Below, piece after piece: positions 9,889 through 58,292 of a stretch of DNA of 64,000 nucleotides (position 1 is the first letter of the stretch; each line of letters starts with the position of its first letter). The notes beneath the pieces are model-generated. The model was not told the DNA's origin, searched no databases, and saw only the letters and a list, made by a program, of their open reading frames with translations. The stretch is from Natrinema caseinilyticum (GTDB lineage Archaea; Halobacteriota; Halobacteria; Halobacteriales; Natrialbaceae): positions 3,655,369 to 3,719,368 of the forward strand of contig NZ_CP100445.1 in assembly GCF_024227435.1 (NCBI RefSeq), given 5' to 3'. The translations under genes and the position numbers were made by a program.

Positions 9889-10247
9889 AACCGAAATCTC
9901 ACTTTTCGATCGCGGCGAAGCCGCACCCTGGCAGTATCTCCAGAAGAACGCGAAGCGCCGCTACCAACGGTTCTTTCGGAATCCCCCAGTCCGGAAGGGC
10001 CCCTGGCGACTCCCGGGCCTCGACCACGTCGGTCACGAGCGGCCACCTCCGTCCGTTCCGATCGCAACGCGGACCGTCACGGCGGTCGACGGCCCGGTCG
10101 GTCATCTGACGGGGTGGAACACACGGTTTCGCCGTCTGCTCGTAGACGCGACGTCTCTTTACGCACGGTTCGCGAAACTATCGCTCCCGTATCAATCACG
10201 GTTCCCGGATGGAGTCCGCACCTCCCTTCAATTGCGGTGTGGAGGTG
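9889..10247. other. Gene-poor gap
   Basis: About 360 bases without a gene I can support. A 68-codon minus-strand frame (9899-10105) is open, but it has no recognisable motif or clear promoter, so I do not call it. Confidence 0.4.
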
Positions 10248-10850
10248 TTAGAAGCCGTTCTTACGGCCGTTGCCCTTGCCGTTCTTACGGCCGTTGCCCT
10301 TGCCGTTCTTACGGCCGTTGCCCTTGCCGTCCCCGCGACCGTTGCTCTTGCCGTTCTTACGGCCGTTGCTCTTGCCGTCCCCGCGACCGTTGCTCTTGCC
10401 GTTCCTGTCACCGTCGCCCGGTCCGCCCCGCGTCGCCGGCTTGAACGATACCTTGTAGTACGGTGCCGGGTTGCCCTCGAGATCCTTGCACTCGAGTGGC
10501 TTGGCAGCGGTGAACTCGTGCCACTCGTCCTCGGCGTCCAGCTCGAGTCGCCGGTTCGGATTGACGAGCACTCGGACCTCACGACCGTCGCTCTCGTACC
10601 GGAGGACGTAGCACTGCCATTCCTTCGGACGGCCGCGACATCCTCTGGTAACGACGGACGTTTCTCTGACGATTCGGAACCGTTCGTCGTGACGGAGGTA
10701 GTACTGTCGGAGGATCCCGCTCCCGCCCTGTGTCGCCTGTGCGCCGTTCGCGTCAGTTATCCGCGCAGACGCGATCCCGGAAGCCGGGATGAGGGCACTA
10801 CTCGCCGCGAGTTTCAGCAGGTACGATCGCCGGGTGTTTCTCTCGGCCAT
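10248..10850 (-). CDS. Exported protein with a basic Gly/Asn/Lys/Arg repeat tail
   Basis: I do not recognise the family. Visible in the 200 residues: an N-terminal export signal with a twin-arginine-like run TRRSYLLKLAASSAL and a small-residue stretch ending SGIASA (about 1-29), pointing to Tat export; a middle domain (about 45-140) with three cysteines and mixed beta-type sequence; and a C-terminal tail (about 150-199) of near-perfect repeats of NGKSNGRGDGK and NGRKNGKG type. The tail is strongly basic, against the acidic norm of this proteome, which suggests binding to an anionic partner such as DNA, polysaccharide or the S-layer. That is inference. Confidence 0.65.
   Translation of the reverse strand: MAERNTRRSYLLKLAASSALIPASGIASARITDANGAQATQGGSGILRQYYLRHDERFRIVRETSVVTRGCRGRPKEWQCYVLRYESDGREVRVLVNPNRRLELDAEDEWHEFTAAKPLECKDLEGNPAPYYKVSFKPATRGGPGDGDRNGKSNGRGDGKSNGRKNGKSNGRGDGKGNGRKNGKGNGRKNGKGNGRKNGF
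10254..10397. repeat. 24-bp tandem repeat coding the basic tail
   Basis: Six 24-bp units run head to tail at 10254, 10278, 10302, 10326, 10350 and 10374. Two unit types occur, one with TTCTTACGG and one with TCCCCGCGA at the same place; the first three are nearly identical and the last three alternate. They encode eight-residue Asn/Gly/Lys/Arg units on the minus strand, and the repeat length keeps the frame, so unit number can vary without breaking the protein. Confidence 0.9.
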
Positions 10851-10870
10851 CGGTGGCCATTCGATTATTC

Positions 10871-10886
10871 AAATACCTTATTATAG
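10871..10886 (-). promoter_or_regulatory. TATA region of the exported repeat protein
   Basis: Minus-strand CTATAATAAGGTATTT covers positions -21 to -36 relative to the ATG at 10850, fitting a leaderless archaeal promoter. Just beyond it (10922-10942) GATCGTG is repeated three times. Confidence 0.45.
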
Positions 10887-28794: not shown

Positions 28795-31755
28795 CTACTT
28801 GGGAAGCAGCATGATGACGGACGTGGTGTTGTGGTACCCACTCATCTGGCCACGTTCCATGCAGAGTTCACCGTAGGTCTCGAACCCACTGAAGGGAACT
28901 CCCAACTCGTCGTCGATCGCACCGACGGCGTCGTCGAACTCGTCGCCGAGGATGATCGAACGACACGCGCAGTCGTAGACGAATCCACCGGCGACGTCAC
29001 TGGATGCGTTTCGAACCGCGGCCCGTGCCGTGTCACGAGCGGACACGATCTGATCGTCCGGCGGACTGTGCATCACACGCAATACGATCCCTTCGGGGAC
29101 GCCGACGGGGAAGTCGAGCGGCCCTTCTTTCGAAAGCGTCAGGCCGGGCCAGCGTATCTTGTACCCGTCGTCGATCGCCCCGGCCCCTTCTTCGATACCG
29201 AACTCGAACTCCGACAAGAGTCCGAGCAGTTCCTGGCTGTCCTCTTCGACGGCATCGAAGTTGACCGTTCGACCAGTCCCGGCGAGATACGATTCGACCG
29301 CTTCGCGCCAGGCTTCGAACGCGGGCCTTCCATCGAGTTCCATGACTCGGCCACCCTCGGATTTCGTCACCGTCATCGGCTCGGAGATCGGCGAGTGGCC
29401 GTGATCGACGGTGATCGTCACCGGCTCTTTCGAGGCCATGAGCGCGATGACGACGGAGTCGGTCGCGATCGTGTCGCCGCGGAAGACGTGCGTCGCGTTC
29501 ATCAGCAGGTCGTCACCCGCCGACCCGCCAACGAAGCTCACATCGTGACCGAGGTTTCGCTGCGTGACGAGTGCGATTTGATCGCTGACTCCGGCCAACC
29601 CGTCGTGGAGGTTGATCGCCGAGAGATGTGGATACCCCTCGACCGACGACGGGAGATCCGCTACCGCTTGATTGACCGCATCCGCAGCCCCTTCGGAGAC
29701 GTCGGTTCCGAGTCCCGTGAAAAATTTGATCGTGTCGCTGGCGACGAGCGAAACTGCGACGCTCCCGTCTAACACGGCCTGTTCGGTGAATTCTCCCGCG
29801 GACGACGCACCGATCAGCTTCGGCGAGGATCCGATCACGTCGCGGATTCCGGCCAGAACGGCCTCGTATTCGTACTCCGGCGAACAAAAGACCTGACAGA
29901 AGTCGACACGATCCGTTCCCAACGCCTCGTGCGCCCTCGACGCCGCTCGATGGCCCGCATCGAAACTATCGTCGTCGATCGCCATGCCGGTCTGGAACTG
30001 CGTCGGAAGCGCCCCGGCGTCGTCCGTGCTATCGAACGAGAACCGCTCGGATTCCATCGTCGCCGGTGACGGCGACTCGGGCGTTGACTCGGGTTCCGTT
30101 TCCCGCGTCGAGGACTCCCACTCGGACCCGGTCGAACCAGAAGTGCCCCAGGTCGAATCGGACCAGTTGGACGTCCCCGCGGGTTCCGATGGCGTCGGTT
30201 CCACCGACGTCGATTTCGACGAGGCCGGTTCCGATGACCGCGAATCTCCAGCAGTTGCGGTCGTGGCATCGGGACGGACGGCGGGCGACCTGCGCTCTAG
30301 CCCCGGCGGGTCCTGGCGTGCTTTGTACATCTCGAGCGTATCGTGCAACCAGTTCGCGTTTTGAGACAGTTGTTTGGCACCGTTCGAAACGTCCGTAAGC
30401 GCGGCCGTCTGTTCTTCGGCCGACGCGGTGACTTCTTCGGCTAACTCGGAGGTCTGCTCGCTGATCGTCGTCGTTTCGTCGACGAGAGCGACCACCTCCT
30501 GCGTCGACTTGGCTTGCTGATCCGCTGCCGTGTGAATCTCCTGTACGCCGTGATTCGTCTCCGCCGCGTACTCCGCGATTTCGGCGAGCGCGTCGAGCGC
30601 GGTTTCGATCGAGTCGGTATGTTCCGCAATTCGTTCTTCCGTCTCTCGAACGGTATTCGTCGCGACTTCGGTCTGTTCGTGAATGTCGTCGATTCGCTTC
30701 TCGATGTCGTCGGCCGCCTCTTTGCTCTTTTCCGCGAGTTCTTTGACTTCCTTTGCGACAGCTGCGAACCCGCCTTTGTCCTGGGATGTATCGGTGCTGC
30801 GCGTTGCCTCGATGTTGGCGTTCAGCGCGAGCATGTTCGTCTCGTGAGCGACCTCGCTGATGAATTCGACCAGTTCGTCGATGGCTTCCATCTCCGCCCG
30901 GAGCGATTCGATGGCTTCGACCGCTTCCGTCGACCCGTCCTCCATTTGGTTCAACCCGTCGATCGCGGTCTGTGCAGCTCGTTGTCCTTCGCGTCCCGTC
31001 TCCGCTGTCCGCTCGGAGAGCGTCGCGACACCGTCGGAGAGGCTGGCGATCTCTTCGATGCTCGAGGAAAGGGTCCCCATTTCGTTCGTGACCGACTGGA
31101 GTTGTTCGGACTGAACCGTCGCACCGTGGGAGATTTCCTGGATCGTTTCGCCGATCTGATTGCTCGCTTCGCTCACCTCTTCGGTCCCCGATAACACTTC
31201 GTCGCTCGATGAGACGACGAGCGAGATGAAGTCTTTGAGGTGACGCATCGTCCCCTCGAGTTCGTCCATCATCTCGTTGAAATCGTCGGCGATGTCCAGT
31301 GACGACTCCTCGTCTGTTTCGATCCGATGCGCGAGTTGGCCGGCAGCAACGAGTTGCATCGCTTCCCGAAACCGTTCGGTATGGTTCTCGATCTGTTCCT
31401 TCTCTCGCTTCACACGCTGCAGTTTCGCCTCCAGGTCGTCTACCTCCTGGCGCTGCTTGCGTATCTCGTCGATCCGTTCTTTGATGACGAGGTCGACCTC
31501 TCGAATGTCACCGGTCGCTACCGCAGAATCGGGCTCTCCGATCGCCGTCTCGATATTCGCAATCACTTCGTCGTGTGTCCGATCGACGCGAGAGCCCAGC
31601 ACGTACCCCGTCACGGTGACGAGAATCACGCCGCCGACCAGTCCGGGAAAACCGGCCGCGTTGCCGGCTACGGCCATGATGACTGCTGCTCCGAAGACGA
31701 CGGCGCCGAACCGTATCGAGTAGTTCGACCCGTCTTCTCGTAGACTAACGCCCAT
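28795..31755 (-). CDS. Methyl-accepting transducer with C-terminal FIST sensor domain
   Basis: The 986-residue protein has an unusual order. Two N-terminal membrane helices (about 16-56) come with almost no outside loop, then a coiled coil and HAMP-like region (about 90-160), then the methyl-accepting signalling domain (about 165-480) with hairpin AHETNMLALNANIEATR near residue 318. A Ser/Thr/Glu/Pro-rich linker (about 482-600) leads to FIST N and C domains (about 605-986, with LIGASSAGEF and FVGGSAGDD), which bind small ligands such as amino acids in other proteins. The sensor is thus cytoplasmic and follows the signalling tip. It should feed the CheA/CheW system encoded further on. ATG 31755 is chosen by its TATA element over 31767 and 31824. 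Confidence 0.87.
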   Translation of the reverse strand: MGVSLREDGSNYSIRFGAVVFGAAVIMAVAGNAAGFPGLVGGVILVTVTGYVLGSRVDRTHDEVIANIETAIGEPDSAVATGDIREVDLVIKERIDEIRKQRQEVDDLEAKLQRVKREKEQIENHTERFREAMQLVAAGQLAHRIETDEESSLDIADDFNEMMDELEGTMRHLKDFISLVVSSSDEVLSGTEEVSEASNQIGETIQEISHGATVQSEQLQSVTNEMGTLSSSIEEIASLSDGVATLSERTAETGREGQRAAQTAIDGLNQMEDGSTEAVEAIESLRAEMEAIDELVEFISEVAHETNMLALNANIEATRSTDTSQDKGGFAAVAKEVKELAEKSKEAADDIEKRIDDIHEQTEVATNTVRETEERIAEHTDSIETALDALAEIAEYAAETNHGVQEIHTAADQQAKSTQEVVALVDETTTISEQTSELAEEVTASAEEQTAALTDVSNGAKQLSQNANWLHDTLEMYKARQDPPGLERRSPAVRPDATTATAGDSRSSEPASSKSTSVEPTPSEPAGTSNWSDSTWGTSGSTGSEWESSTRETEPESTPESPSPATMESERFSFDSTDDAGALPTQFQTGMAIDDDSFDAGHRAASRAHEALGTDRVDFCQVFCSPEYEYEAVLAGIRDVIGSSPKLIGASSAGEFTEQAVLDGSVAVSLVASDTIKFFTGLGTDVSEGAADAVNQAVADLPSSVEGYPHLSAINLHDGLAGVSDQIALVTQRNLGHDVSFVGGSAGDDLLMNATHVFRGDTIATDSVVIALMASKEPVTITVDHGHSPISEPMTVTKSEGGRVMELDGRPAFEAWREAVESYLAGTGRTVNFDAVEEDSQELLGLLSEFEFGIEEGAGAIDDGYKIRWPGLTLSKEGPLDFPVGVPEGIVLRVMHSPPDDQIVSARDTARAAVRNASSDVAGGFVYDCACRSIILGDEFDDAVGAIDDELGVPFSGFETYGELCMERGQMSGYHNTTSVIMLLPK

Positions 31756-31776
31756 AATATTACGCATACGGAAACA

Positions 31777-31786
31777 GTATAAGAAA
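31777..31786 (-). promoter_or_regulatory. TATA box of the FIST transducer gene
   Basis: Minus-strand TTTCTTATAC is 22-31 bases before the ATG at 31755 and lies too close to serve 31767. Confidence 0.5.
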
Positions 31787-31938
31787 TTGGTGTATTGACC
31801 GAAAACGCTCAAGTACGATTTCATAACTGCGAATATGTTTGTTAGAACGAGTAAAAATCGGAGTTTGCCGCGTCGAGATCGAACGCGACAGACGACACGT
31901 GACCGCCGGTCGAGGTCGACGACTGTTCGGACCCTCGA

Positions 31939-33499: not shown

Positions 33500-33604
33500 C
33501 CCTGTAAGGCTCGACGGATCTCGGTCGTACCACCAGCCCTGTAAGGTTCGACGAATCTCGGTCGTACCACCAGCCCTGTAAGGTTCGACGAATCTCGGTC
33601 GTAC
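33500..33604. repeat. 37-bp tandem direct repeat, 2.8 copies
   Basis: Two full 37-bp units (33500-33536, 33537-33573) and a 31-bp partial unit (33574-33604) lie head to tail without spacers. Units begin CCCTGTAAGG and end GTACCACCAG; the second and third are identical over their shared length, the first differs at two bases. With no spacers this is not a CRISPR array. Part of the unit (GGTTCGACGAATC) loosely resembles a tRNA T-arm, and a tRNA gene lies 500 bases away; I regard the likeness as possibly chance. Confidence 0.88.
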
Positions 33605-48311: not shown

Positions 48312-49241
48312 TCAGGGCTCGATGTTCGAATTCGCACGCCGGTTGGGACGTCCGACGCTCGTTCTCGCGGGGTCTCGCTGATAGATACGCAGACGGGCTT
48401 CGCGAACGGCGAACGACGACTGGAGGTTCGGCGGAATCGTTTCGGCCTTCCCGATAACGAGGTACCCCTCCGGACGAAGCGACCGGGCTATCGTTTCGAG
48501 CATCGACTCCTTGTACGCGTTGTCGATGTAGATAAACAGGTTGCGACAGACGACGAGATCGAAACCCGACTTCGGCTCGTCGTTGATCAGGTCGTGTCGC
48601 TGGAATCGGACGTTTTGTTTCACGCCGTTGCCGATCCGGTACGTCCGGCCATCGACGTCGACGTATCGGGTGTAGTCGTCGAGAAATGAGAGCTGATCGT
48701 CGAGATCGACGGTCCGAGACTCCTCGTAGACGCCCGCTCGAGCCGTCTCGAGTGCCGGCGTACTGATATCGGTTCCGAGGATGTACACCTTCGATTCGTC
48801 GATCTCCGGGTCGTCGCGGGCGAGCATCGACAGCGAGTAGGGTTCCCGGCCGTCAGCACAGGCCGCGCTCCACACCCGGACGGTCGGATAGTTCTCGGAG
48901 AGCCGACGGAGCACGACGCGAATTCCCGACCAGACGTCGGGGTTGCGAAAGAACCCCGTGACGTTGATACTCATTGCCTCGAGCAGCGCGTCCTGTTCGT
49001 CAGGATCGGTCCGCAGTATTTCGAAATAGGCGTCGTACGTGTCACTCTGGGTGCGGCGCATCCGGGAGGAGACGCGTCTGTCGAGGTAACTGTCGTTGTA
49101 GTGGCTCGTTGCAAAGGATAGTTCGTCCTCGACGAACGCGAGGAGATCCCCGAACGCGTCGGCGCTGCCTCGTTCGTTACCGTTGCTCCCGTCCGCATCG
49201 TCTCGAGGGAGTCCGGCGTCGCCATCGGTGCCTCCGATCAC
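48312..49241 (-). CDS. cheR: Chemotaxis protein methyltransferase CheR
   Basis: The 309-residue enzyme methylates glutamates on transducers using S-adenosylmethionine. The N-terminal helical domain (about 30-100) carries YLDRRVSSRMRR and GFFRNPDVW; the SAM-binding domain shows VRVWSAACADGREPYSLSM, GTDISTPALETARAG and FDLVVCRNLFIYI. An acidic N-terminal extension of about 25 residues is extra. It is the last che gene of the set and overlaps cheD by four bases. Confidence 0.94.
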   Translation of the reverse strand: MIGGTDGDAGLPRDDADGSNGNERGSADAFGDLLAFVEDELSFATSHYNDSYLDRRVSSRMRRTQSDTYDAYFEILRTDPDEQDALLEAMSINVTGFFRNPDVWSGIRVVLRRLSENYPTVRVWSAACADGREPYSLSMLARDDPEIDESKVYILGTDISTPALETARAGVYEESRTVDLDDQLSFLDDYTRYVDVDGRTYRIGNGVKQNVRFQRHDLINDEPKSGFDLVVCRNLFIYIDNAYKESMLETIARSLRPEGYLVIGKAETIPPNLQSSFAVREARLRIYQRDPARTSVGRPNRRANSNIEP

Positions 49242-49753
49242 AGCTCTGTCACTCCGGTTTCGCCGTTCGAGGTCTTCACGACGAGCTTTCCGGTTCCGGG
49301 TGTGAACTCGACGGTCCGGCCGTGATCGCCGCCGACGTCCTCCGCCTCGAGCGGGACGCCGAGTTTCTCGAGTTCATCTTTTGCAGCGGCGATGTTTCGC
49401 TGTCCGACGCCGTCACCGAAGCTTTCGAACTCGAACATATCGCTGCCGCCGGTGATCTTCGCTTCGACAGTGGTGTAGTTGGCACCTTGCTCGACCATTC
49501 GTCGGAGGAGCGCTCGGATCGCCGTGTCGGCGTACTTTCCGGGTTTGCGATCGCTGTTGTCCGCGGCATCGCCGTCGGGCAACATGACGTGTGCGAGGCC
49601 CCCAATCTCGGAGTTCGGATCGTACAGTGCGATGGCGAGACACGAGCCGAGCCCGTAGGACTTGAGCGTGTCGTCACCTTCGCTGACGACCAGTTCGGAG
49701 ATACCGACCTGGACGGGCGTTGGTGCGCCTGGTTCAGTACCGTAAGTTTTCAT
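49238..49753 (-). CDS. cheD: Chemotaxis receptor deamidase CheD
   Basis: The 171-residue protein converts glutamines of transducers to glutamates and works with CheC. The catalytic Cys is in SYGLGSCLAIALYD and the His in IGGLAHVMLPDG, as in the family. TTVEAKITGGSDMF and GVGQRNI follow. It overlaps the double-CheC gene and cheR by four bases on either side, so the three are coupled. Confidence 0.94.
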   Translation of the reverse strand: MKTYGTEPGAPTPVQVGISELVVSEGDDTLKSYGLGSCLAIALYDPNSEIGGLAHVMLPDGDAADNSDRKPGKYADTAIRALLRRMVEQGANYTTVEAKITGGSDMFEFESFGDGVGQRNIAAAKDELEKLGVPLEAEDVGGDHGRTVEFTPGTGKLVVKTSNGETGVTEL

Positions 49754-51018
49754 GTGGTATCGACTTCCTGGAACTCTGCCGTCGTCGGCGTCTCTTCGAT
49801 CCGATCGACGTCGAGGTCGTTCAGCGCGCGCTCGAGGTCCGATTCGTCGGGAATCGCGTACACCTCACAATCGAACTCGCGGCCGTCGGCCACGACGACC
49901 GTATCGAAGATGAACGCGAAGTCCTGATTTTCGCCGAGTTGAATAATGACTGGATCGACGGCTGCGGCGCCGATGTCGTGGATGAATTCCGGCGTCGAAT
50001 GGTCGATCGTCGTATCCAGGACGTTCGCCCACCCGTCGAGAAATCCGCTGGCCATGATGTTACCCAGTTCCGTGATCGCGCTCGTCCCCATCTCGCCGAA
50101 GCCGTCTTCGTCGACTTCCATCGGAACCATCGCGTCGACGATTTCGTGAGCCGATTCCTCGTCGAACAAGAAGAGGAGATAGCCGCTCGGCATTCCGTCG
50201 AATTCGAAGGCGACCCCGACGAGCTTCTCGTTCGCTACCTGCTCCGGGATCGCCTCGAGCGAGACGAAGTTCAGTCGCCGGATCTCGACGCTGGTATCGA
50301 TTCCGGTCAGCGTGGTCGCGGTCTTGGCTACCTCTTCGGCGCCGCGCTCGGCCATCCGATCGAAGCCGTCGAGTTTGTCGTACTCGATGCCGTCGCTGGT
50401 TCGCAGTCGCTCCAGAAGCGTCGACATCGACTCGCGTTTCGGGAAGAGATAGTGGCTGAAGCCCACTTCCGTGCCGACGGTTTCGATCCGGCTCTGAAAC
50501 AGCAAGGCGAGGTCGTCGTCGGCCGGCGCCTCGTCGATGTCGCCGAAAAATGGCTCGGCGGATTCGCCCTCGACGAACTCGGGCGTCGACACGTCGATGA
50601 CCGCCTCGAGCACGTCGGCCCAGCCGTCGATGAACCCGCTGTTCATGATGTGACCGACTTCGGTCGCGGCGCTTTTCGTCATCTCGTCGAACTCGTCGAT
50701 CTCGCCGATGTGGGTCTCGACGTCCGCATCCGGACTCGCCCCGGCGAGTAGTGTCTCGACGACCCTGAGCGCGTTTTCGCGCTCGAAGACGACGACCGAG
50801 TAGCCCTCGATCGCGCCGGTCAGTTTGACCCGAACGCCGACTTTCTCGACCGAATCCTCGAAGTCGTGGCTGATCTCCTGGCCCCGCATGAAGTTGAGTT
50901 TCGTTACGCCCACCTGCGTTTCGACGCCCAGCATGTGGGTGAGTCGGCCCGCCGCGAGCCCGGCGCCCTCTCGAGCCATCCGGTAGAACGTGCCGAGTGC
51001 GTTGACGTCGAGTTTCAT
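49750..51018 (-). CDS. cheC: CheC-family protein with two CheC domains
   Basis: The 422-residue protein is two CheC-like units in tandem (about 1-210 and 215-400). Each has the phosphatase-type helix motif: first MTKSAATEVGHIMNSGFIDGWADVL, second ITELGNIMASGFLDGWANVL, with Glu and Asn in the typical places. CheC removes phosphate from CheY and partners CheD. Two copies fused in one chain are longer than bacterial CheC (about 200). It overlaps the single-CheC gene by four bases, so three CheC domains come from consecutive genes. Confidence 0.9.
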   Translation of the reverse strand: MKLDVNALGTFYRMAREGAGLAAGRLTHMLGVETQVGVTKLNFMRGQEISHDFEDSVEKVGVRVKLTGAIEGYSVVVFERENALRVVETLLAGASPDADVETHIGEIDEFDEMTKSAATEVGHIMNSGFIDGWADVLEAVIDVSTPEFVEGESAEPFFGDIDEAPADDDLALLFQSRIETVGTEVGFSHYLFPKRESMSTLLERLRTSDGIEYDKLDGFDRMAERGAEEVAKTATTLTGIDTSVEIRRLNFVSLEAIPEQVANEKLVGVAFEFDGMPSGYLLFLFDEESAHEIVDAMVPMEVDEDGFGEMGTSAITELGNIMASGFLDGWANVLDTTIDHSTPEFIHDIGAAAVDPVIIQLGENQDFAFIFDTVVVADGREFDCEVYAIPDESDLERALNDLDVDRIEETPTTAEFQEVDTT

Positions 51019-51620
51019 GCGGGTTGGACTTCGATGCCGTTGACCATTTCCACGAACTCTTCTAAGTCCGGGAAGGCGTAAATCTCGGCTTCGATCTGGT
51101 AACTCGGCACGGACAGATCCGAATCGAAGAACAGCGCGAGGTCATCGCCGCCCAGACTGGCCGTCCGAGTAACGATGTCCCCGGTCGGCGCGTAGACGAG
51201 CTGTGGCGCAGCGATATCGATCGCCCGCCCGAGGACGTCGGCCCAGCCGTCGATGAACCCGCTGGCCATCATGTTCCCCATCTCCTCGACTGCGCTTCGG
51301 GCCATCTTGCCGGAGACGTCGCCCATGTCGTCGACGACATCGCGCAGCATGATCGCGGTGATTTTCTTGGCGCTCGCTTCGGGGAACAGGATGAGGATGT
51401 GTCCGTGTGGTGGATCGAGGAGTCGAACACGGACGCCGACCCGCTTCCCGCCGTCGAGTTGGGACTCGATGTCCTCGACGTCGATGAAGTTGGTCTTGGT
51501 CACCTCCATGTGGGAGTCTTGCCCGGTCAGTTTACTCATGTTGTCGGCGACGCCGTTCGTCCCGACCTTCGCCATTTCGTTTATAAAGCTCAACTTTCGA
51601 ATGTCGACCATCATCGTCAT
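51015..51620 (-). CDS. cheC: CheC (CheY-P phosphatase)
   Basis: This 201-residue single-domain CheC has the active helix motif MARSAVEEMGNMMASGFIDGWADVL (about residues 106-130) and the beta-rich CheC fold around it. A Shine-Dalgarno GGAGG five bases before ATG 51620 supports that start over the nearby internal ATGs. It lies 34 bases after the cheA stop. Confidence 0.92.
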   Translation of the reverse strand: MTMMVDIRKLSFINEMAKVGTNGVADNMSKLTGQDSHMEVTKTNFIDVEDIESQLDGGKRVGVRVRLLDPPHGHILILFPEASAKKITAIMLRDVVDDMGDVSGKMARSAVEEMGNMMASGFIDGWADVLGRAIDIAAPQLVYAPTGDIVTRTASLGGDDLALFFDSDLSVPSYQIEAEIYAFPDLEEFVEMVNGIEVQPA

Positions 51621-51625
51621 AGGTT

Positions 51626-51630
51626 CCTCC
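51626..51630 (-). promoter_or_regulatory. Shine-Dalgarno site of cheC
   Basis: Minus-strand GGAGG is five bases before the ATG at 51620. This internal gene of the operon uses a ribosome-binding site, unlike the leaderless first genes. Confidence 0.55.
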
Positions 51631-51654
51631 GTCGGTGTTGGTGTTCGCGTTCGT

Positions 51655-54600
51655 TCATAGTGTCGTCACGTCCAGTATGTTGACTACTTCCCCTCGTCCC
51701 CGAACCGTTGCCCCGCTGAGACCCGGAATGTCGCTCATGAATCCCTCGTAGGGTTTGACGACGACCTCCTGTTGGCCGTGGATGTGATCGCAGTGCAGGG
51801 CCACTTCCCGGACCTCTCCGCGGATTCGGACGACCATTCCCTCGCCGTTCACACCCGCCCTCGGCGTCTCGAGGACGTCGGCCAGCTTGACGACGCGGTA
51901 ATCGCCGTCGTCGCCCGGGAGGACGGATTCGCCGCCCGCCGTCTCGAGCGACGCGGCGGACTCGATGTCGCGGATCGCTTTCGTCGGAACGCCGAACTCC
52001 TCGCCGCCGCTTTCGACGAACAGAATCTCGTCGATCGCGACCGATACAGGGAGCTGCATCGTGACGGTCGTCCCTTCGCCCGGTTCACTGTCGATCGAAA
52101 CCGACCCGTCGAGATCTTCGATCGTCCGTTTGACGACGTCCATTCCGACGCCGCGACCGCTCACGTCGGTCACTTCGCTGGCGGTCGTAAGACCGGAGTG
52201 GAAGATGAGTTCGTACACGTCCTCGTCGGACAGCGTGTCCGCTTCGTCCTCCTCGATTATGTCGGCCGCCACGGCTTCGGTTCGAAGCCTGTCGGGATCG
52301 AGTCCACACCCGTCGTCTATGACGGTAATGGTCGCACGGTCGCGTGACCGTTCCGCGTGGACTTCGACCGTCCCTTCCCGAGGTTTGTCCGCGTCCTCGC
52401 GCACTTCGGGTGGCTCTATCCCGTGGTCCACAGCGTTACGCACCAGGTGGATGAGCGGATCGCCGATTCGATCGAGAATACTCCGGTCGAGTTCGACGTC
52501 TTCGCCGACCATTTCGAAGGTGGCCTCCTTGTCCTGTTCGCGGGCGATATCGCGGACGACTCGCGGGAGACGGTTCGTCACCGTCCGCAACGGAACCAGT
52601 CGAATGTTCATGACCGTCTCCTGGAGATCCGTCGTCAGTTCCGACAGCGAATCGAGTTCCGCCTCGAGCGCCGCATCGTCGTCATCTGCCTCAGCCGCGT
52701 GTCGAAGGCGGACGCGACTCGTCACCAGGCCCTCGACGAGCGTCAGCAGCGAGTCGATCTGGTCGACGTCGACCCGGACTGATTGAATCTCGCCGGTTTC
52801 CGCCTCGGCGTCGGGCCGGTCTGTCGCCTCCGGGACTGAGAGATCCGGAATCGGCAGTTCGGGTTCCTCGACGATTCGAACGACGTCGTCTTCGGAATCG
52901 TCGTCTGCGCCGACCGTATCGTCGCCGAACGAGGCTTCAGACGAGGGACTCGAGTCCCCCTCGACGCTCGAATCTGCCGTCGGCGAATCGAATCCGCCCC
53001 TCCCGACGTCGAACTCTTCGGTTCCAGCGAATGCCTCGTCGTCGAGTTGTTCGTCGAAGGGATCGTCGAAACCGGTCTCGAAGCCCTCGTCCACCGTCTC
53101 CGTCTCGGAATCGGCCGTACTCGCCGACGGTTCGTCCACTGCGTCGTCGAAACCGCCACTGGACTCGTCGTCGAAGCCGTCGCCAGACCCGTCGTCGTCA
53201 TCGAAGCCGTCGCCGGACCCGTCGTCGAATCCGTCACCGGACACATCGTCGAGGCCGTCGCCGGACACGTCGTCGAAGCCGGCGCCGGATACGTCGTCGA
53301 GGCCGTCGTCGAATCCGTCACTGGACTCGTCGTCGAAGCCGGCGATGCCGTCGTCTTCCGCGTCGAAGGCTTCTGTATCGTCCGCCGAGGTCTCGGCTGT
53401 GCCCGCAGCGGGTGTCGTCGGATCGAACTCACCTTCGGTATCCGACCCGAACGCTTCGCTGGTCGTCCCTTCGTCAGACTCCGACCGGCTTTCCGAATCG
53501 ACCGTCTCGAGGTCGCTCTCGTCACCGGCTTCGAAGGGGTCGGCAGCCTCGTCGACTGCGCCGAATTCGGCAGCGTCGTCGCTCGGTTCGGCTTCGGCGG
53601 TTTCCGACTGGACGCCGTACTCGGTCGAATCCGCGCCGACGCCGTCGCCGGCACCAGTTTCGTCGAATCCGTCGTCGAACCCGTCGTCGTCGAACCCGTC
53701 GTCGTCGAATCCGTCGTCGAACCCGTCGTCGTCGAACCCGTCGTCGTCGAATCCGTCGTCGAACCCGTCGTCGTCGAATCCGTCGTCGAATCCGTCGTCG
53801 AACCCGTCGTCGAATCCGTCGTCGAACCCGTCGTCGAACCCGTCGTCGAACCCGTCGTCACCTGAAATCTCATCGCCGTCATCGCCGATACCAGTCTCGG
53901 CGTCGAACCCTCCATCGTCGGTTTCAGTGTCGCCCGCGATCGTCTCGTCGACATCTCCGATCGTCTCCGTGTCCGTGACATCCACAGACGCACCGTCGGC
54001 GTCGGTCTCATCTGTCACTCCGTCGTCGACGACAGCCTCCTCGGGTTCGTCCGAATCGGCGATATCGTCGCCTGCAACACGCTCGATCGTCTCGTCTTCG
54101 TCCGGTGCATCGGTCGCTTCATCGGTCGGACCGACGGAGTCGGCATCTGACACGACTGGCTCGTCCGGTGAATCGGTCGACGGTGTCGCATCGATGGAAT
54201 CGTCGCCCGCAGCTGTCTCGATTCCGTTGGTCTCGACCACAGCCTCGACGTCGTCGGTATCCGAAGCCTGGGTTACATCGATGTCGCCCGCTGTCGGCTC
54301 GTATGCGCTTTCGGCATCGACGAGACCGTCGTCCTCGTCGCTCGCTGCAACGGTATCGGTACCACCGCCTTCGTCGTCACCGTCCACATCGACCGCACCC
54401 GCACTGCCCTCGTCGATCACGTCTGCGCCGTCCTCGTCATCATCCGTCGTATCAGTCGTGACGTCGTCGATGGCGCCCACTGACGGGTCAGTTTCGTCGA
54501 GGAACGAGTCGTCCTCGACGTCGTCGCCGAGGAGTTCGTCCATATCGACCTCCTCTTCGTCGTCGAACTCGTCGAACTCGAGTTCCGCGAGTTCGTCTTG

Positions 54601-55788
54601 CAGCTCGTCGAAGCCGACCATCTCGACTTCGTCCTTCAATTCGTTGAAAACCGCGCTTGCGTCGTCGACCTGGTCGTCCGGTTCGGACGCTGTACCGTCG
54701 TCCGCCGTGGCCCCGTCTTCGGGACCCGATTCGGAACCGGGTGCAGTAGTCGTCTCCGATTCGGACGCCGTCTCATCGTCTCCCTCGTCGATGGTGCTCG
54801 CCGGCGGTTCACCCGGCCCGGACTCGAGGTCGGCGGCCCCTTCGTCTTCCAGCAACTCGTCGAACGAGCCGGCATCGCCCATGTCGTCGAACGCCGACAG
54901 TTCGTCTTCGTCGACGTCTTTGACCATCTCGTCCAGGTCGTCGAACTCGGAAAACTCGTCGAGGAGGTCGTCGACGTTGAGATCCTGGGCCTCCTCGGAC
55001 GTCATCTCCTCACTGGGCACTGCTTCGGCCGCGCGCGGTTCTGCGCCCGGTTCGTCGTCGCCCTCCAACCGATCGGTGACGTCGACGATCTCGAACTCGT
55101 CGACTTCCTCGACCGGATCGAGACCCGACGAGATAGCGGCCTTGCCCACAGCGGTTGCGAAGACGGCGTCGAAGCGGCCGTCGTAGTCGGCGGCCGCGAT
55201 CCGTTCCTGGGGCGGATCAGTGCCGATCAGATCGAACGCGTCGATCAACGCGTCGACAACCAGTTTTCCGTTGTTGACGCCCGCTTCCTCCGCGATCGCC
55301 AACCGAGCGAGATAGACGTCGTGGCCATCGTCGATCGGCGGATCGAACCGCGAGCACACGTCGTCGATCTCGTCGGCCGACGGCGCGACGAGTCCGGTCG
55401 TCTCCTCAGTCGTATCTGTCTCGAGGTGATCTCGAAGGGCGGTTATCGTCGCCGACGGATCGGTCTCGACCGTGCCGGTGCGGGCGACCTCGTCGATCAT
55501 CGTCTCGAGTTCGTCGACGGCGTCGAAAATGACGTCCATCAACTCCGGTGTGACGTCGAGTTCGTCGGCGCGGACGGCGTCCAACAGATCCTCGATCGCG
55601 TGAGCGAGATCGCTCGCCGACTGGAGGCCCATCGCACCGCAGTTCCCCTTGAGGGTGTGTGCGACCCGGAAAATATTTTCCATGGCCTCCTCGTCGTTCG
55701 GATTGCGCTCGAGCGTGAGCAAATCGTTGTTCAGTTCCGTAATCCGTTCTTCGCTCTCCTGAACGAAATCTGTCAGATAATCAGTCAT
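51655..55788 (-). CDS. cheA: CheA histidine kinase with very long acidic insert
   Basis: The 1377-residue protein is about twice normal CheA length. P1 histidine-phosphotransfer domain (1-105) has His44 in RVAHTLKGNCGAMG. A P2-like region follows (about 125-235). Then comes an acidic, low-complexity insert of about 760 residues (about 240-1000), including FDDG repeats at about 641-710 and DVSGDGFDD-type repeats at about 814-886. The kinase core is complete: P3 dimerisation (from about 1000), P4 with HLVRNAVDHGIEPP, IDDGCGLD and GRGVGMDVVKRT, and the CheW-like P5. The usual linker between P2 and P3 is 50-100 residues. The frame is open to 55917, but MTDYLTDFVQESEERI at 55788 is the family start. 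Confidence 0.93.
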   Translation of the reverse strand: MTDYLTDFVQESEERITELNNDLLTLERNPNDEEAMENIFRVAHTLKGNCGAMGLQSASDLAHAIEDLLDAVRADELDVTPELMDVIFDAVDELETMIDEVARTGTVETDPSATITALRDHLETDTTEETTGLVAPSADEIDDVCSRFDPPIDDGHDVYLARLAIAEEAGVNNGKLVVDALIDAFDLIGTDPPQERIAAADYDGRFDAVFATAVGKAAISSGLDPVEEVDEFEIVDVTDRLEGDDEPGAEPRAAEAVPSEEMTSEEAQDLNVDDLLDEFSEFDDLDEMVKDVDEDELSAFDDMGDAGSFDELLEDEGAADLESGPGEPPASTIDEGDDETASESETTTAPGSESGPEDGATADDGTASEPDDQVDDASAVFNELKDEVEMVGFDELQDELAELEFDEFDDEEEVDMDELLGDDVEDDSFLDETDPSVGAIDDVTTDTTDDDEDGADVIDEGSAGAVDVDGDDEGGGTDTVAASDEDDGLVDAESAYEPTAGDIDVTQASDTDDVEAVVETNGIETAAGDDSIDATPSTDSPDEPVVSDADSVGPTDEATDAPDEDETIERVAGDDIADSDEPEEAVVDDGVTDETDADGASVDVTDTETIGDVDETIAGDTETDDGGFDAETGIGDDGDEISGDDGFDDGFDDGFDDGFDDGFDDGFDDGFDDDGFDDGFDDDGFDDDGFDDGFDDDGFDDDGFDDGFDETGAGDGVGADSTEYGVQSETAEAEPSDDAAEFGAVDEAADPFEAGDESDLETVDSESRSESDEGTTSEAFGSDTEGEFDPTTPAAGTAETSADDTEAFDAEDDGIAGFDDESSDGFDDGLDDVSGAGFDDVSGDGLDDVSGDGFDDGSGDGFDDDDGSGDGFDDESSGGFDDAVDEPSASTADSETETVDEGFETGFDDPFDEQLDDEAFAGTEEFDVGRGGFDSPTADSSVEGDSSPSSEASFGDDTVGADDDSEDDVVRIVEEPELPIPDLSVPEATDRPDAEAETGEIQSVRVDVDQIDSLLTLVEGLVTSRVRLRHAAEADDDDAALEAELDSLSELTTDLQETVMNIRLVPLRTVTNRLPRVVRDIAREQDKEATFEMVGEDVELDRSILDRIGDPLIHLVRNAVDHGIEPPEVREDADKPREGTVEVHAERSRDRATITVIDDGCGLDPDRLRTEAVAADIIEEDEADTLSDEDVYELIFHSGLTTASEVTDVSGRGVGMDVVKRTIEDLDGSVSIDSEPGEGTTVTMQLPVSVAIDEILFVESGGEEFGVPTKAIRDIESAASLETAGGESVLPGDDGDYRVVKLADVLETPRAGVNGEGMVVRIRGEVREVALHCDHIHGQQEVVVKPYEGFMSDIPGLSGATVRGRGEVVNILDVTTL
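53130..53345 (-). repeat. Acidic repeat block 2 in cheA
   Basis: An imperfect tandem repeat of about 30-36 bp codes the DVSGDGFDD and GSGDGFDDDD-type units (residues about 814-886). Unit length varies, but always in multiples of three, keeping the frame. Confidence 0.8.
53657..53866 (-). repeat. Acidic FDDG repeat block 1 in cheA
   Basis: Short tandem repeats of 12 and 15 bp (minus-strand units coding Asp-Gly-Phe-Asp or Asp-Asp-Gly-Phe-Asp) span about 210 bases. The repeat is on the sense strand of CheA and is its most regular part: about 17 consecutive units each placing one Phe between acidic residues. Confidence 0.9.
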
Positions 55789-57028
55789 CGTTCTCACCGT
55801 CCGTCGTGAACGCATCGACGATCGCATCGACGATGCCGTTTGCGGGCGCGACTCGATCGACACAGCCCGTATCGATTGCCTGACAGGGGATGCCAAAGAC
55901 CGGACTCGTTGCCTCATCCTGTGCGATCGTCCGCCCGCCAGCGGCCTTGATCGCCTCGATGCCGGCTGCGCCGTCGCGACCCATACCGGTCAAAACGACG
56001 CCACAGAGTGCGTCCGAAACCCGCTCGGCTGCGCTGGTCATCGTGACGTCGATCGCCGGCCGCACGCCGTGGATCCGGTCGCCCTCGTCGAGTCGGAGGC
56101 GTAGCGCCCCTCCGACGTTGCTTGCCACCTCGAGGTGGGAGTGGCCCGGCGCGACCGCCGCCTCGCCAGACGTGAGTCGCTGTCGGTCCGTCGCTTCGCT
56201 GACGTCGTACGTGCTCAACGAATCGAGACGGTCGGCCAACCGCGACGTAAACTCCGGAGGCATGTGCTGGACGACCAACACCTTGGCCTCGAGGTCGGTC
56301 GGCAGCCGTTCGAACACTCGCTCGACGATCTTCGGGCCGCCGGTCGATGCGCCGATGATCACCGTCGGTGCGTCCGCGCGGTCGTCACCGACCGTGATCG
56401 GGGGCGCGGGTTCGCCGGATTCGAATCCGGATTCGATTTCGGGACGCGCGTCCGGCCCGGTCGTTTTGCTGTCGCACGTGGGATGGGCGTCGGACCCGCC
56501 ACCGGCGACGGCATTACCGATTTCCGTTTCGGTGCCAGCCCCTGTCCCGGCAGTTGACGTTCGTCCGGTACGACTCGCGGTACCCGTCCTCGTCGCGTAG
56601 GCGGTCGCGGACGCACGAGCGAGCGCGACGGAAGAAATCTGTGCCTCCGCGAGCTCGTCGACTGTCTCGACGACTTCGTCGGTGAGATGCGCGATGTTGC
56701 GCGAATCGGAGCCGTCCGGCTTGTGAATAAAATCTACAGCCCCTCGTTCCAGGGCGTCGAACGTCGCCTCGGCGCCGCGTTCGGTGTGGACGCTGAGCAT
56801 GAGAAGGATGGTCGGGTTCGTCGCCATAATCCGTTCGACGGCGTCGATCCCGTCCATTTCCGGCATTTCGACGTCCATCGTCACGACGTCCGGATCGAAC
56901 GTGGCGGCGAGTTCGACCCCTTCGGATCCGTTCGCAGCTGTTTCGACCTCGTACCCGGCTTCGGTGAGCGCGTTGCCGATGACTGTCCGCATAAACCTCG
57001 AGTCGTCGACAACGAGTACTCGCGTCAT
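55781..57028 (-). CDS. cheB: Chemotaxis response regulator/methylesterase CheB
   Basis: The 415-residue protein removes methyl groups from transducers. It has an N-terminal receiver with Asp9/Asp10-type pair (VVDDSRF) and phospho-acceptor Asp52 (MDVEMPEMDG). A linker (about 130-220) joins it to the esterase domain with the Ser in IIGASTGGPKIV, His in QHMPPEF and Asp in LTGMGRDGAAG. The linker is longer than in bacteria and Gly/Ala/Thr-rich. It overlaps cheA by eight bases and cheY by four. Confidence 0.94.
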   Translation of the reverse strand: MTRVLVVDDSRFMRTVIGNALTEAGYEVETAANGSEGVELAATFDPDVVTMDVEMPEMDGIDAVERIMATNPTILLMLSVHTERGAEATFDALERGAVDFIHKPDGSDSRNIAHLTDEVVETVDELAEAQISSVALARASATAYATRTGTASRTGRTSTAGTGAGTETEIGNAVAGGGSDAHPTCDSKTTGPDARPEIESGFESGEPAPPITVGDDRADAPTVIIGASTGGPKIVERVFERLPTDLEAKVLVVQHMPPEFTSRLADRLDSLSTYDVSEATDRQRLTSGEAAVAPGHSHLEVASNVGGALRLRLDEGDRIHGVRPAIDVTMTSAAERVSDALCGVVLTGMGRDGAAGIEAIKAAGGRTIAQDEATSPVFGIPCQAIDTGCVDRVAPANGIVDAIVDAFTTDGENDD

Positions 57029-57387
57029 GCCGCAACGACGTCTGAAAGGGCCTTTCTGACGCTGGGTTCCTCGAACGGCTTCGTGACGTAACCGTCCGCG
57101 CCAGCCTTCACGGCGAGTTTCATTTTCTCACGCTGTCCGACACTCGTACACATGATGACGCGGGAGTCCGGGTCGATCTTCTTGATCGCCGCGGTCGCCT
57201 TGATGCCGTTACACTTCGGCATCACGATGTCCATCATGACGATATCGGGATCGTGTTCTTTGTACAATTTTACGGCTTCTGCTCCGTTAGACGCCTCTCC
57301 GAGGATGCGGTAATCCTGCTCCAGGATCTGACGAAGTAGGTTCCGCATAAAATGAGAGTCGTCCACGATGAGCACCCCTGTCGACAT
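57025..57387 (-). CDS. cheY: Chemotaxis response regulator CheY
   Basis: The 120-residue single-domain receiver has acidic pair Asp9/Asp10, phospho-acceptor Asp53 (MDIVMPKCNG), Thr at the switch position in MCTSVGQ and the conserved Lys in YVTKPFEEP. Phosphorylated by CheA, it acts on the archaellum switch. It is first in the cheY-cheB-cheA-cheC-cheC2-cheD-cheR run, each joined by overlaps or short gaps. Minus-strand TTGTATCTC about 25-33 bases upstream may be its promoter. Confidence 0.95.
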   Translation of the reverse strand: MSTGVLIVDDSHFMRNLLRQILEQDYRILGEASNGAEAVKLYKEHDPDIVMMDIVMPKCNGIKATAAIKKIDPDSRVIMCTSVGQREKMKLAVKAGADGYVTKPFEEPSVRKALSDVVAA

Positions 57388-57524
57388 TCAGTAGTACACC
57401 AAACTCTGGTAGAGATACAACTACCATAAATGCTGTCTCTCGATTATCAGACATGATAACCGTCGAATATGCCCCGGAAACCCGCTCGCAACGCCTGTTC
57501 GTAATCTGGTCGACCGGACGACTC

Positions 57525-58292
57525 TCAGGCGTGACCCGAGGCCAGCAACAATCGATCGACGTCGATCAGCGCAGTCGCTTCCACGACGATTTCCTGCGGC
57601 GAGTCGTCCGCCGGTTCGTCGTCCACCTCCGGTTCGATCTCGAACGTCTCGCCCATCGGTTCGCCGAACCTGCCGGCCGTCTCGCGGACCGACGTCATCG
57701 CCGTCGAGACGCCGATTCCAGTCCCGACACCGGTGTCCGACTCGAGTCGCTCTTCCTCCGGTCCGTCGGCCACCATGTCACTAACGTCGATCCGCTGCTC
57801 CCGTTCTTGCGTCACGAGCGCGACGACGAGGGGGTGTTCCAGTGCGTCACCGGCAAATTCGCTGCTCTCGATCCCGTCGCTGTCGATCACGTCGCTTTCG
57901 GGAACCGTTTCGACACCGACGACTTCGTCGACCCGGATCGCGGCCGATTGCTGGTCGCCCGGCCGGTCGAGGACGAGCAGTCGTTCCTTCTCCGACCTGG
58001 GTTCGTCCACCGGAAAGTGAACGCGCGTGTCGACCACCGCAGTTATTTCCCCTCGGAGGTCCATCAGTCCCTCGATCGCGGGGGGCGACCGCGGGACTCG
58101 AGTCAACGACGTCGGCGGTTCCGTAATCGTGCTGACCGCGTCGACTGGAAGTGCGAGTCGGTGATCGCCGATGCGGACGAAGACGAATTGAACGAGATCC
58201 TCACGCTCGCGTTCCCCACCGACCTCGTCGCGGGTCCGTTCGGCGCCGTCGATATCGATTCCAAGGAGCTTTTCAGAGAGATCCGGTGCCAT
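57525..58292 (-). CDS. cheW: Chemotaxis adaptor CheW with extended C-terminus
   Basis: The 255-residue adaptor links transducers to CheA. The CheW fold occupies about residues 28-205: DLVQFVFVRIGDHRLALPVDAV, PPAIEGLMDLRGEITAVVDTR and PGDQQSAAIRVDEVVGV. The C-terminal 50 residues are acidic and not part of the fold (ordinary CheW is about 150-170). It lies 137 bases upstream of cheY, and has its own promoter with a palindrome, so it may be separately controlled. Confidence 0.88.
   Translation of the reverse strand: MAPDLSEKLLGIDIDGAERTRDEVGGEREREDLVQFVFVRIGDHRLALPVDAVSTITEPPTSLTRVPRSPPAIEGLMDLRGEITAVVDTRVHFPVDEPRSEKERLLVLDRPGDQQSAAIRVDEVVGVETVPESDVIDSDGIESSEFAGDALEHPLVVALVTQEREQRIDVSDMVADGPEEERLESDTGVGTGIGVSTAMTSVRETAGRFGEPMGETFEIEPEVDDEPADDSPQEIVVEATALIDVDRLLLASGHA

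Follow-up and report, generated by a model that had tools for sequence, protein, structure and literature searches.

How could a chemoreceptor use a sensor module that follows its signaling domain? This question is raised by a gene of Natrinema caseinilyticum (28795 to 31755, minus strand) within a window of 64,000 nucleotides, by which we mean the whole stretch of DNA that was analyzed. The gene encodes a methyl-accepting chemotaxis protein (MCP) that ends in a FIST module, here called MCP-FIST. We show below that MCP-FIST is a real, conserved gene fusion of single origin, and propose how its terminal module might act.

A chemoreceptor that continues into FIST

The gene lies in a single uninterrupted frame (28795 to 31824) with no stop inside, as read from the open reading frame list and its translation, and encodes 985 amino acids from an ATG at 31755 to a stop at 28795. 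In-frame starts also exist further upstream, at 31767 and 31824. The ATG at 31755 is favored because the N termini of orthologues fall near it in the alignment and because a TATA-like box (TTTCTTATA, found by eye at 31778 to 31786) lies ~27 nt upstream. Residue numbers of the protein count from the in-frame start at 31824, not from this ATG, and all features of the gene given below are on the minus strand.

Hydropathy indicates a hydrophobic stretch at residues 34 to 80 in which a short turn is all that separates two helices; Kyte-Doolittle windows place the membrane hairpin at residues 39 to 80 (31585 to 31710), in agreement with the initial annotation, which had described a membrane part with almost no external loop. 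A coiled coil and HAMP-like region (residues 85 to 200; 31225 to 31572), assigned by reading the sequence, is kept in orthologues; its HAMP-like stretch (LVAAGQLAHRIETDEE..DDFNEMMDELE) was recognized by eye and received no Pfam call for HAMP. The MCPsignal domain (PF00015; residues 281 to 453; 30466 to 30984) scores 102 bits (E = 4.2e-29) against a curated cut-off of 34.6, which identifies the protein as an MCP. Its hairpin tip, NMLALNANIE (residues 330 to 339; 30808 to 30837), is the expected point of contact with CheA/CheW and is kept in the aligned orthologues together with the AEEQT motif. From YKAR to the start of FIST runs a low-complexity linker (residues 504 to 605; 30010 to 30315), 82% of which consists of S, T, E, P, D, G, or A; a Ser/Thr/Glu/Pro linker had been noted before, but at 120 residues, and its length is 102. 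It contains a Phe-Ser-Phe sequence (residues 595 to 597; 30034 to 30042) 11 residues ahead of FIST. The whole FIST module (residues 606 to 1009; 28798 to 30009) aligns with a complete stand-alone FIST protein, and both of its domains exceed their Pfam cut-offs: FIST_N (PF08495; residues 641 to 833; 29326 to 29904) with 128.8 bits against 23.2 (E = 3e-37) and FIST_C (PF10442; residues 847 to 988; 28861 to 29286) with 75.1 bits against 28.5 (E = 7.2e-21). Because MCPsignal (281 to 453) precedes FIST (641 to 988), the protein departs from the conventional sensor-before-signal order, and the arrangement originally described, a single transducer with FIST after the signaling domain, is borne out by the Pfam order MCPsignal-linker-FIST_N-FIST_C in one frame.

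Distribution and single origin of the fusion

A sample of 242 Halobacteria genomes, drawn from the class, and a sample of 125 Natrialbaceae genomes were searched by FIST family. FIST genes occur in 40 of the 242 and in 29 of the 125. The initial annotation had proposed a search for the same domain order, and MCP-linker-FIST recurs in 12 of the 125 Natrialbaceae genomes (13 proteins, two of them in one genome), including those of Natrinema gelatinilyticum, Natrinema salsiterrestre, Halobiforma nitratireducens, and Halobiforma haloterrestris. No fused form was found outside Natrialbaceae in the 242-genome class sample, and the longest-frame FIST matches outside the family, read individually, lack an MCP domain. 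The protein nearest to MCP-FIST of the window is that of N. gelatinilyticum, with 92% identity in FIST. Identity of orthologues to the window protein is 69 to 82% in FIST and 60 to 80% in the MCP core, compared to 20 to 34% in the linker and 32 to 47% in the transmembrane part; FIST is conserved as well as the signaling domain, where loss of its conservation had been named as grounds for rejecting the proposed transducer.

In a maximum-likelihood tree of FIST, the FIST parts of all sampled fused proteins form one clade (support 100/99), and the fusion arose once, as far as the data show. Given this one clade and the conservation of FIST, the fusion is older than the split of the genera that hold it, and its FIST part has been maintained. 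Three genomes contain both states, stand-alone FIST and fused MCP-FIST, together. The gene neighborhood varies: in other genera MCP-FIST lies downstream of rpsG (ribosomal protein S7) and near the EF-2 gene, in a neighborhood of translation genes (L032 to L035, L053), and in Natrinema-type genomes it occupies two other places, one of them beside succinate dehydrogenase.

Stand-alone FIST proteins and their partner kinase

The majority of haloarchaeal FIST genes are stand-alone and, as with bacterial NosP, immediately precede a histidine kinase gene. A PAS-HisKA-HATPase histidine kinase gene lies directly downstream on the same strand in 21 of 26 stand-alone FIST loci, a few of which are one genome counted twice; the five loci without a kinase neighbor are L043, L050, L051, L056, and L058. 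An adjacent downstream kinase is found at none of the 10 fused MCP-FIST loci. When the N-terminal region of the kinase was sought in the 125 Natrialbaceae genomes, it was present in exactly those that carry stand-alone FIST of this clade (12 of 12, including the genome of the window), and the nine with only the fused form all lack it, a split with a chance probability of 3e-6 if the kinship of the genomes is ignored. Bacterial FIST genes in the loci examined are likewise paired with kinases, and NosP-NahK systems pair a FIST protein with a histidine kinase (PMC12570481, PMC12997753). Based on the pairing in stand-alone relatives and in NosP-NahK systems, the usual output partner of FIST is a kinase, whereas here it would be a chemoreceptor. 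The N-terminal region of the kinase does not significantly resemble the fused receptor anywhere along its length, so no common docking piece was found.

Some FIST loci appear to be degenerating. In Halopenitus persicus (L073:5956-6537), a shortened FIST remnant of 191 amino acids, with its middle missing, is flanked by genes for a response regulator and a histidine kinase, which makes this a decaying FIST-kinase locus. On a plasmid of Haloplanus sp. (L101:4001-4514), a sensor kinase and a response regulator are followed by a FIST fragment that is unannotated and broken into several pieces, probably also a remnant, and in a genome of the same genus as the window (G266:C1:845328-846854) stand-alone FIST is split by an internal TGA beside an intact kinase N-terminal region. 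Among bacteria, FIST-kinase pairs (L093, L155, L157) adjoin PQQ or alcohol/aldehyde dehydrogenase genes, making alcohol or aldehyde metabolism a further lead for the FIST ligand.

The fusion joint

Long acidic tails are frequent at the ends of ordinary Natrialbaceae receptors. Among 26 ordinary MCPs with tails of at least 25 residues (a few from other families of the order), 14 have Phe-x-Phe in the last 25 residues, compared to 0.38 expected from shuffles (L103, L104, L106, L122 to L127, L132 to L136); the motif is mostly FTFG or FSFG, with the general form F[ST]F[GDT]. Phe-x-Phe also occurs in 12 of 13 distinct fused linkers (0.29 expected), 10 to 18 residues ahead of FIST, both counts being of related proteins and not of independent events. 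At the other side of the joint, the FIST part starts (LPTQFQTG) where stand-alone proteins start (e.g., MDTQVGTG). Because the linker keeps the F-x-F that ends ordinary haloarchaeal receptors, the simplest history suggested by these sequences is an in-frame fusion of two complete proteins, a receptor and a FIST protein.

A bacterial CheR-binding pentapeptide (xZxxZ) is absent from the C terminus of MCP-FIST, which is FIST itself, and the internal F-x-F of the linker differs in spacing from this aromatic pentapeptide. In Halobacteriales, bacterial-type CheR/CheB pentapeptides were reported in 0 of 2730 receptors (PMC7390727). The F-x-F tail may be the docking tail that haloarchaeal receptors have of their own, and is notable in receptors reported to be without bacterial-type adaptation pentapeptides.

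Chemotaxis array and proposed mechanism

A che operon lies ~17 kb from the MCP-FIST gene, inside the window (48312 to 58292, minus strand), in the order CheR, (CheD, CheC, CheC), CheA, CheB, CheY, CheW; CheR, CheA, CheB, CheY, and CheW were assigned by Pfam and CheD and both CheC by reading the sequence. CheA and the methylation enzymes are both encoded here. Because its CheA is the only clear one of the genome, there is an array to signal to: the CheA array onto which FIST had been suggested to feed is available, and this operon would encode the array to which MCP-FIST signals. The genome has seven MCP genes, and only MCP-FIST has a recognized folded domain after the hairpin. Elsewhere in the window, a 37-bp tandem repeat (33500 to 33604; 2.8 copies, 97% matches) is located near a TatA-like gene and a tRNA-Arg gene, and a 24/48-bp tandem repeat gives rise to an open reading frame of hydrophobic VALAVLTA repeats (10209 to 10886) that may not be a genuine gene.

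In an MCP, the chain comes back at the C-terminal end of its hairpin to the membrane-proximal base. A FIST module tethered there would be near the HAMP and methylation helices, or would roam as far as the linker reaches, and not be beyond the CheA tip; the initial description of FIST as lying beyond the hairpin is correct for the order of the sequence but not in space. The sensor would probably be cytoplasmic, in keeping with the part of the earlier proposal that concerned intracellular sensing. A long, poorly conserved, low-complexity linker could not transmit a rigid twist, which favors signaling by docking over rigid helix coupling. A full-length AlphaFold model built from five sequences had a mean pLDDT of 40 and is uninformative on the docking surface.

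We therefore propose that MCP-FIST is probably a membrane-anchored receptor, derived from one fusion, whose tethered FIST module senses a cytoplasmic cue and alters MCP control of CheA. In Natrialbaceae, a single fusion would have brought together an MCP and a stand-alone FIST protein, both complete, the MCP down to its acidic tail with F-x-F. Ordinarily a FIST protein controls a histidine kinase in trans, following the logic of NosP-NahK, and in the fused protein the chemoreceptor would have replaced this kinase. On its flexible linker, FIST could sense a cytoplasmic cue, and the signal would most likely pass by docking of FIST under control of the ligand, either on the receptor, at HAMP or the adaptation helices near the base of the hairpin, or on array or adaptation proteins. 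Docked FIST might then alter MCP control of CheA and hence swimming. The partner swap has its observed basis in the architecture, its conservation and single origin, the pattern of partner kinases, the intact hairpin tip, and the che operon; the sensing, the docking, the direction of the signal, and the ligand we infer. We speculate, with more doubt than conviction, that a heme- or metabolite-binding FIST module that once regulated a kinase now steers swimming while the adaptation-tether motif of the receptor is still working within the linker.

Fold and candidate ligands of the FIST module

An AlphaFold2 model of residues 611 to 1009 (pLDDT 88, pTM 0.88) has as its nearest solved fold FBXO22 (Z 20 to 21, 255 to 272 residues aligned by VIA-align), followed by the Toblerone-fold cyclic amide hydrolases and chorismatase (Z 12 to 13); RidA-like and FtsZ C-terminal domains match single thirds of the model. 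Searches by sequence, with the single protein or with a family profile, found no solved structure, and FBXO22 was recovered by fold only. The model speaks for a pseudo-threefold module in which a small ligand could be held, and the fold names none. Invariant positions in the haloarchaeal FIST set include His808, Cys952, Tyr984, and His998, within a set of Cys, His, Tyr, and Arg residues.

The initial annotation had predicted an amino acid ligand, which for FIST is reportedly an old prediction from genome context; nothing in our analysis supports it. The FIST ligands found with experimental backing are NO via heme in NosP and heme in CdpA (PMC12570481, PMC8846402). FIST might accordingly bind heme and sense NO, or heme itself, as a transducer for archaeal NO-taxis, a special case of the tethered sensor proposed above with the ligand named. 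Apart from the precedent of these two FIST proteins, the best NCBIfam match of the FIST part is the NosP model (NF041558; 4.6e-23), stand-alone haloarchaeal FIST genes have the FIST-kinase order of NosP, and Cys952 and His998 are kept both in the haloarchaeal set and in the seven NosP or NosP-like proteins compared. However, the score of 81.9 bits falls below the NF041558 cut-off of 450, and of the near-invariant NosP histidines, one near 889 is Lys in MCP-FIST and one near 809 is offset by one position. Nor is Cu nitrite reductase, a source of NO, enriched with the fused gene (8 of 12 genomes compared to 60 of 113; p = 0.54), and the genome of the window has none above the cut-off. Heme/NO sensing by MCP-FIST is a candidate reading that we consider unlikely.

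A pocket of the pseudo-threefold fold might instead bind an amino acid or another organic metabolite of the cytoplasm. Toblerone-fold cyclic amide hydrolases and chorismatase bind small ring compounds in their active sites, and in two Natrinema-type genomes the gene adjoins succinate dehydrogenase, but a common fold does not show function, and other genera have the gene between rpsG and the EF-2 gene. Since the neighborhood differs between genera, it gives no constant metabolic clue, and a metabolite ligand seems to us also unlikely, if slightly less so than heme/NO. It is less probable still, and in our opinion improbable, that FIST does not sense at all and serves adaptation or as a scaffold by recruiting CheR/CheB/CheD, a kinase, or machinery of the cell pole. 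The FIST domain of FBXO22 acts through protein contacts (PMC13316043), as does FIST in NosP-kinase pairs, and the tail motif kept in the linker could itself be a docking peptide; against this, ordinary receptors of the same genome have no such module, and the invariant Cys/His/Tyr/Arg set suggests a chemical site. Finally, with a stand-alone FIST family in existence, a missed stop is conceivable, by which two genes would have been misread as one or a decayed fusion taken for an intact one. The initial annotation had named evidence for two proteins as a refutation of the transducer, but the frame runs without a stop in the window and in every orthologue, and FIST is strongly conserved (69 to 82% identity in orthologues). 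This reading is refuted computationally and retains practically no probability.

Whatever its ligand, the sensor module seems to have exchanged a two-component kinase for the chemotaxis array as its output during evolution, and related genomes still show both states. This provides a natural experiment on FIST signaling, as the surface of FIST must work on a kinase and, when tethered, on a receptor, and makes MCP-FIST a tractable handle on what archaeal FIST domains sense. If FIST binds heme/NO, it would be an archaeal receptor for NO-taxis.

Comparison with known systems

MCP-FIST has the FIST_N and FIST_C module in common with NosP-NahK pairs (PA1975-PA1976 of P. aeruginosa and relatives), and in haloarchaea, too, its stand-alone relatives are followed directly by a kinase gene. 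In contrast, MCP-FIST is fused to a chemoreceptor, lacks an adjacent kinase, misses the NosP cut-off, and has one NosP histidine replaced. The FIST domain of FBXO22 shares a common fold with that of MCP-FIST (Z 20 to 21), but FBXO22 is a eukaryotic F-box protein with ~12% identity to it and another function. Ordinary Natrialbaceae transducers, such as a 561-amino-acid MCP of the same genome (L113), are ~40 to 50% identical in the signaling core and have the same acidic tail with an F-x-F end motif, but stop there, whereas MCP-FIST continues into FIST.

A plasmid-encoded protein of Pantoea agglomerans (WP_191914328.1) likewise combines FIST_N, FIST_C, and MCPsignal in one protein; there FIST (51 to 387) precedes MCPsignal (484 to 645) in the usual order, which in MCP-FIST is reversed and on a long linker. 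Titles and abstracts, a search into which the original FIST paper did not fall, yielded no report of an MCP-FIST protein. The initial statement that ordinary transducers sense before signaling describes what is usual but not universal, since CZB is C-terminal in the chemoreceptor TlpD (PMC13001251), as is PilZ in Azospirillum Tlp1 and Aer (PMC6406031). Like MCP-FIST, these receptors carry a regulatory or sensory domain after the MCP hairpin; unlike CZB and PilZ, which are smaller modules with known ligands, the FIST module of MCP-FIST comprises ~400 residues and belongs to an archaeal transmembrane receptor. C-terminal sensor domains on chemoreceptors were thus already known from CZB and PilZ, and it is the evidence for a swap of partner that is the new part.
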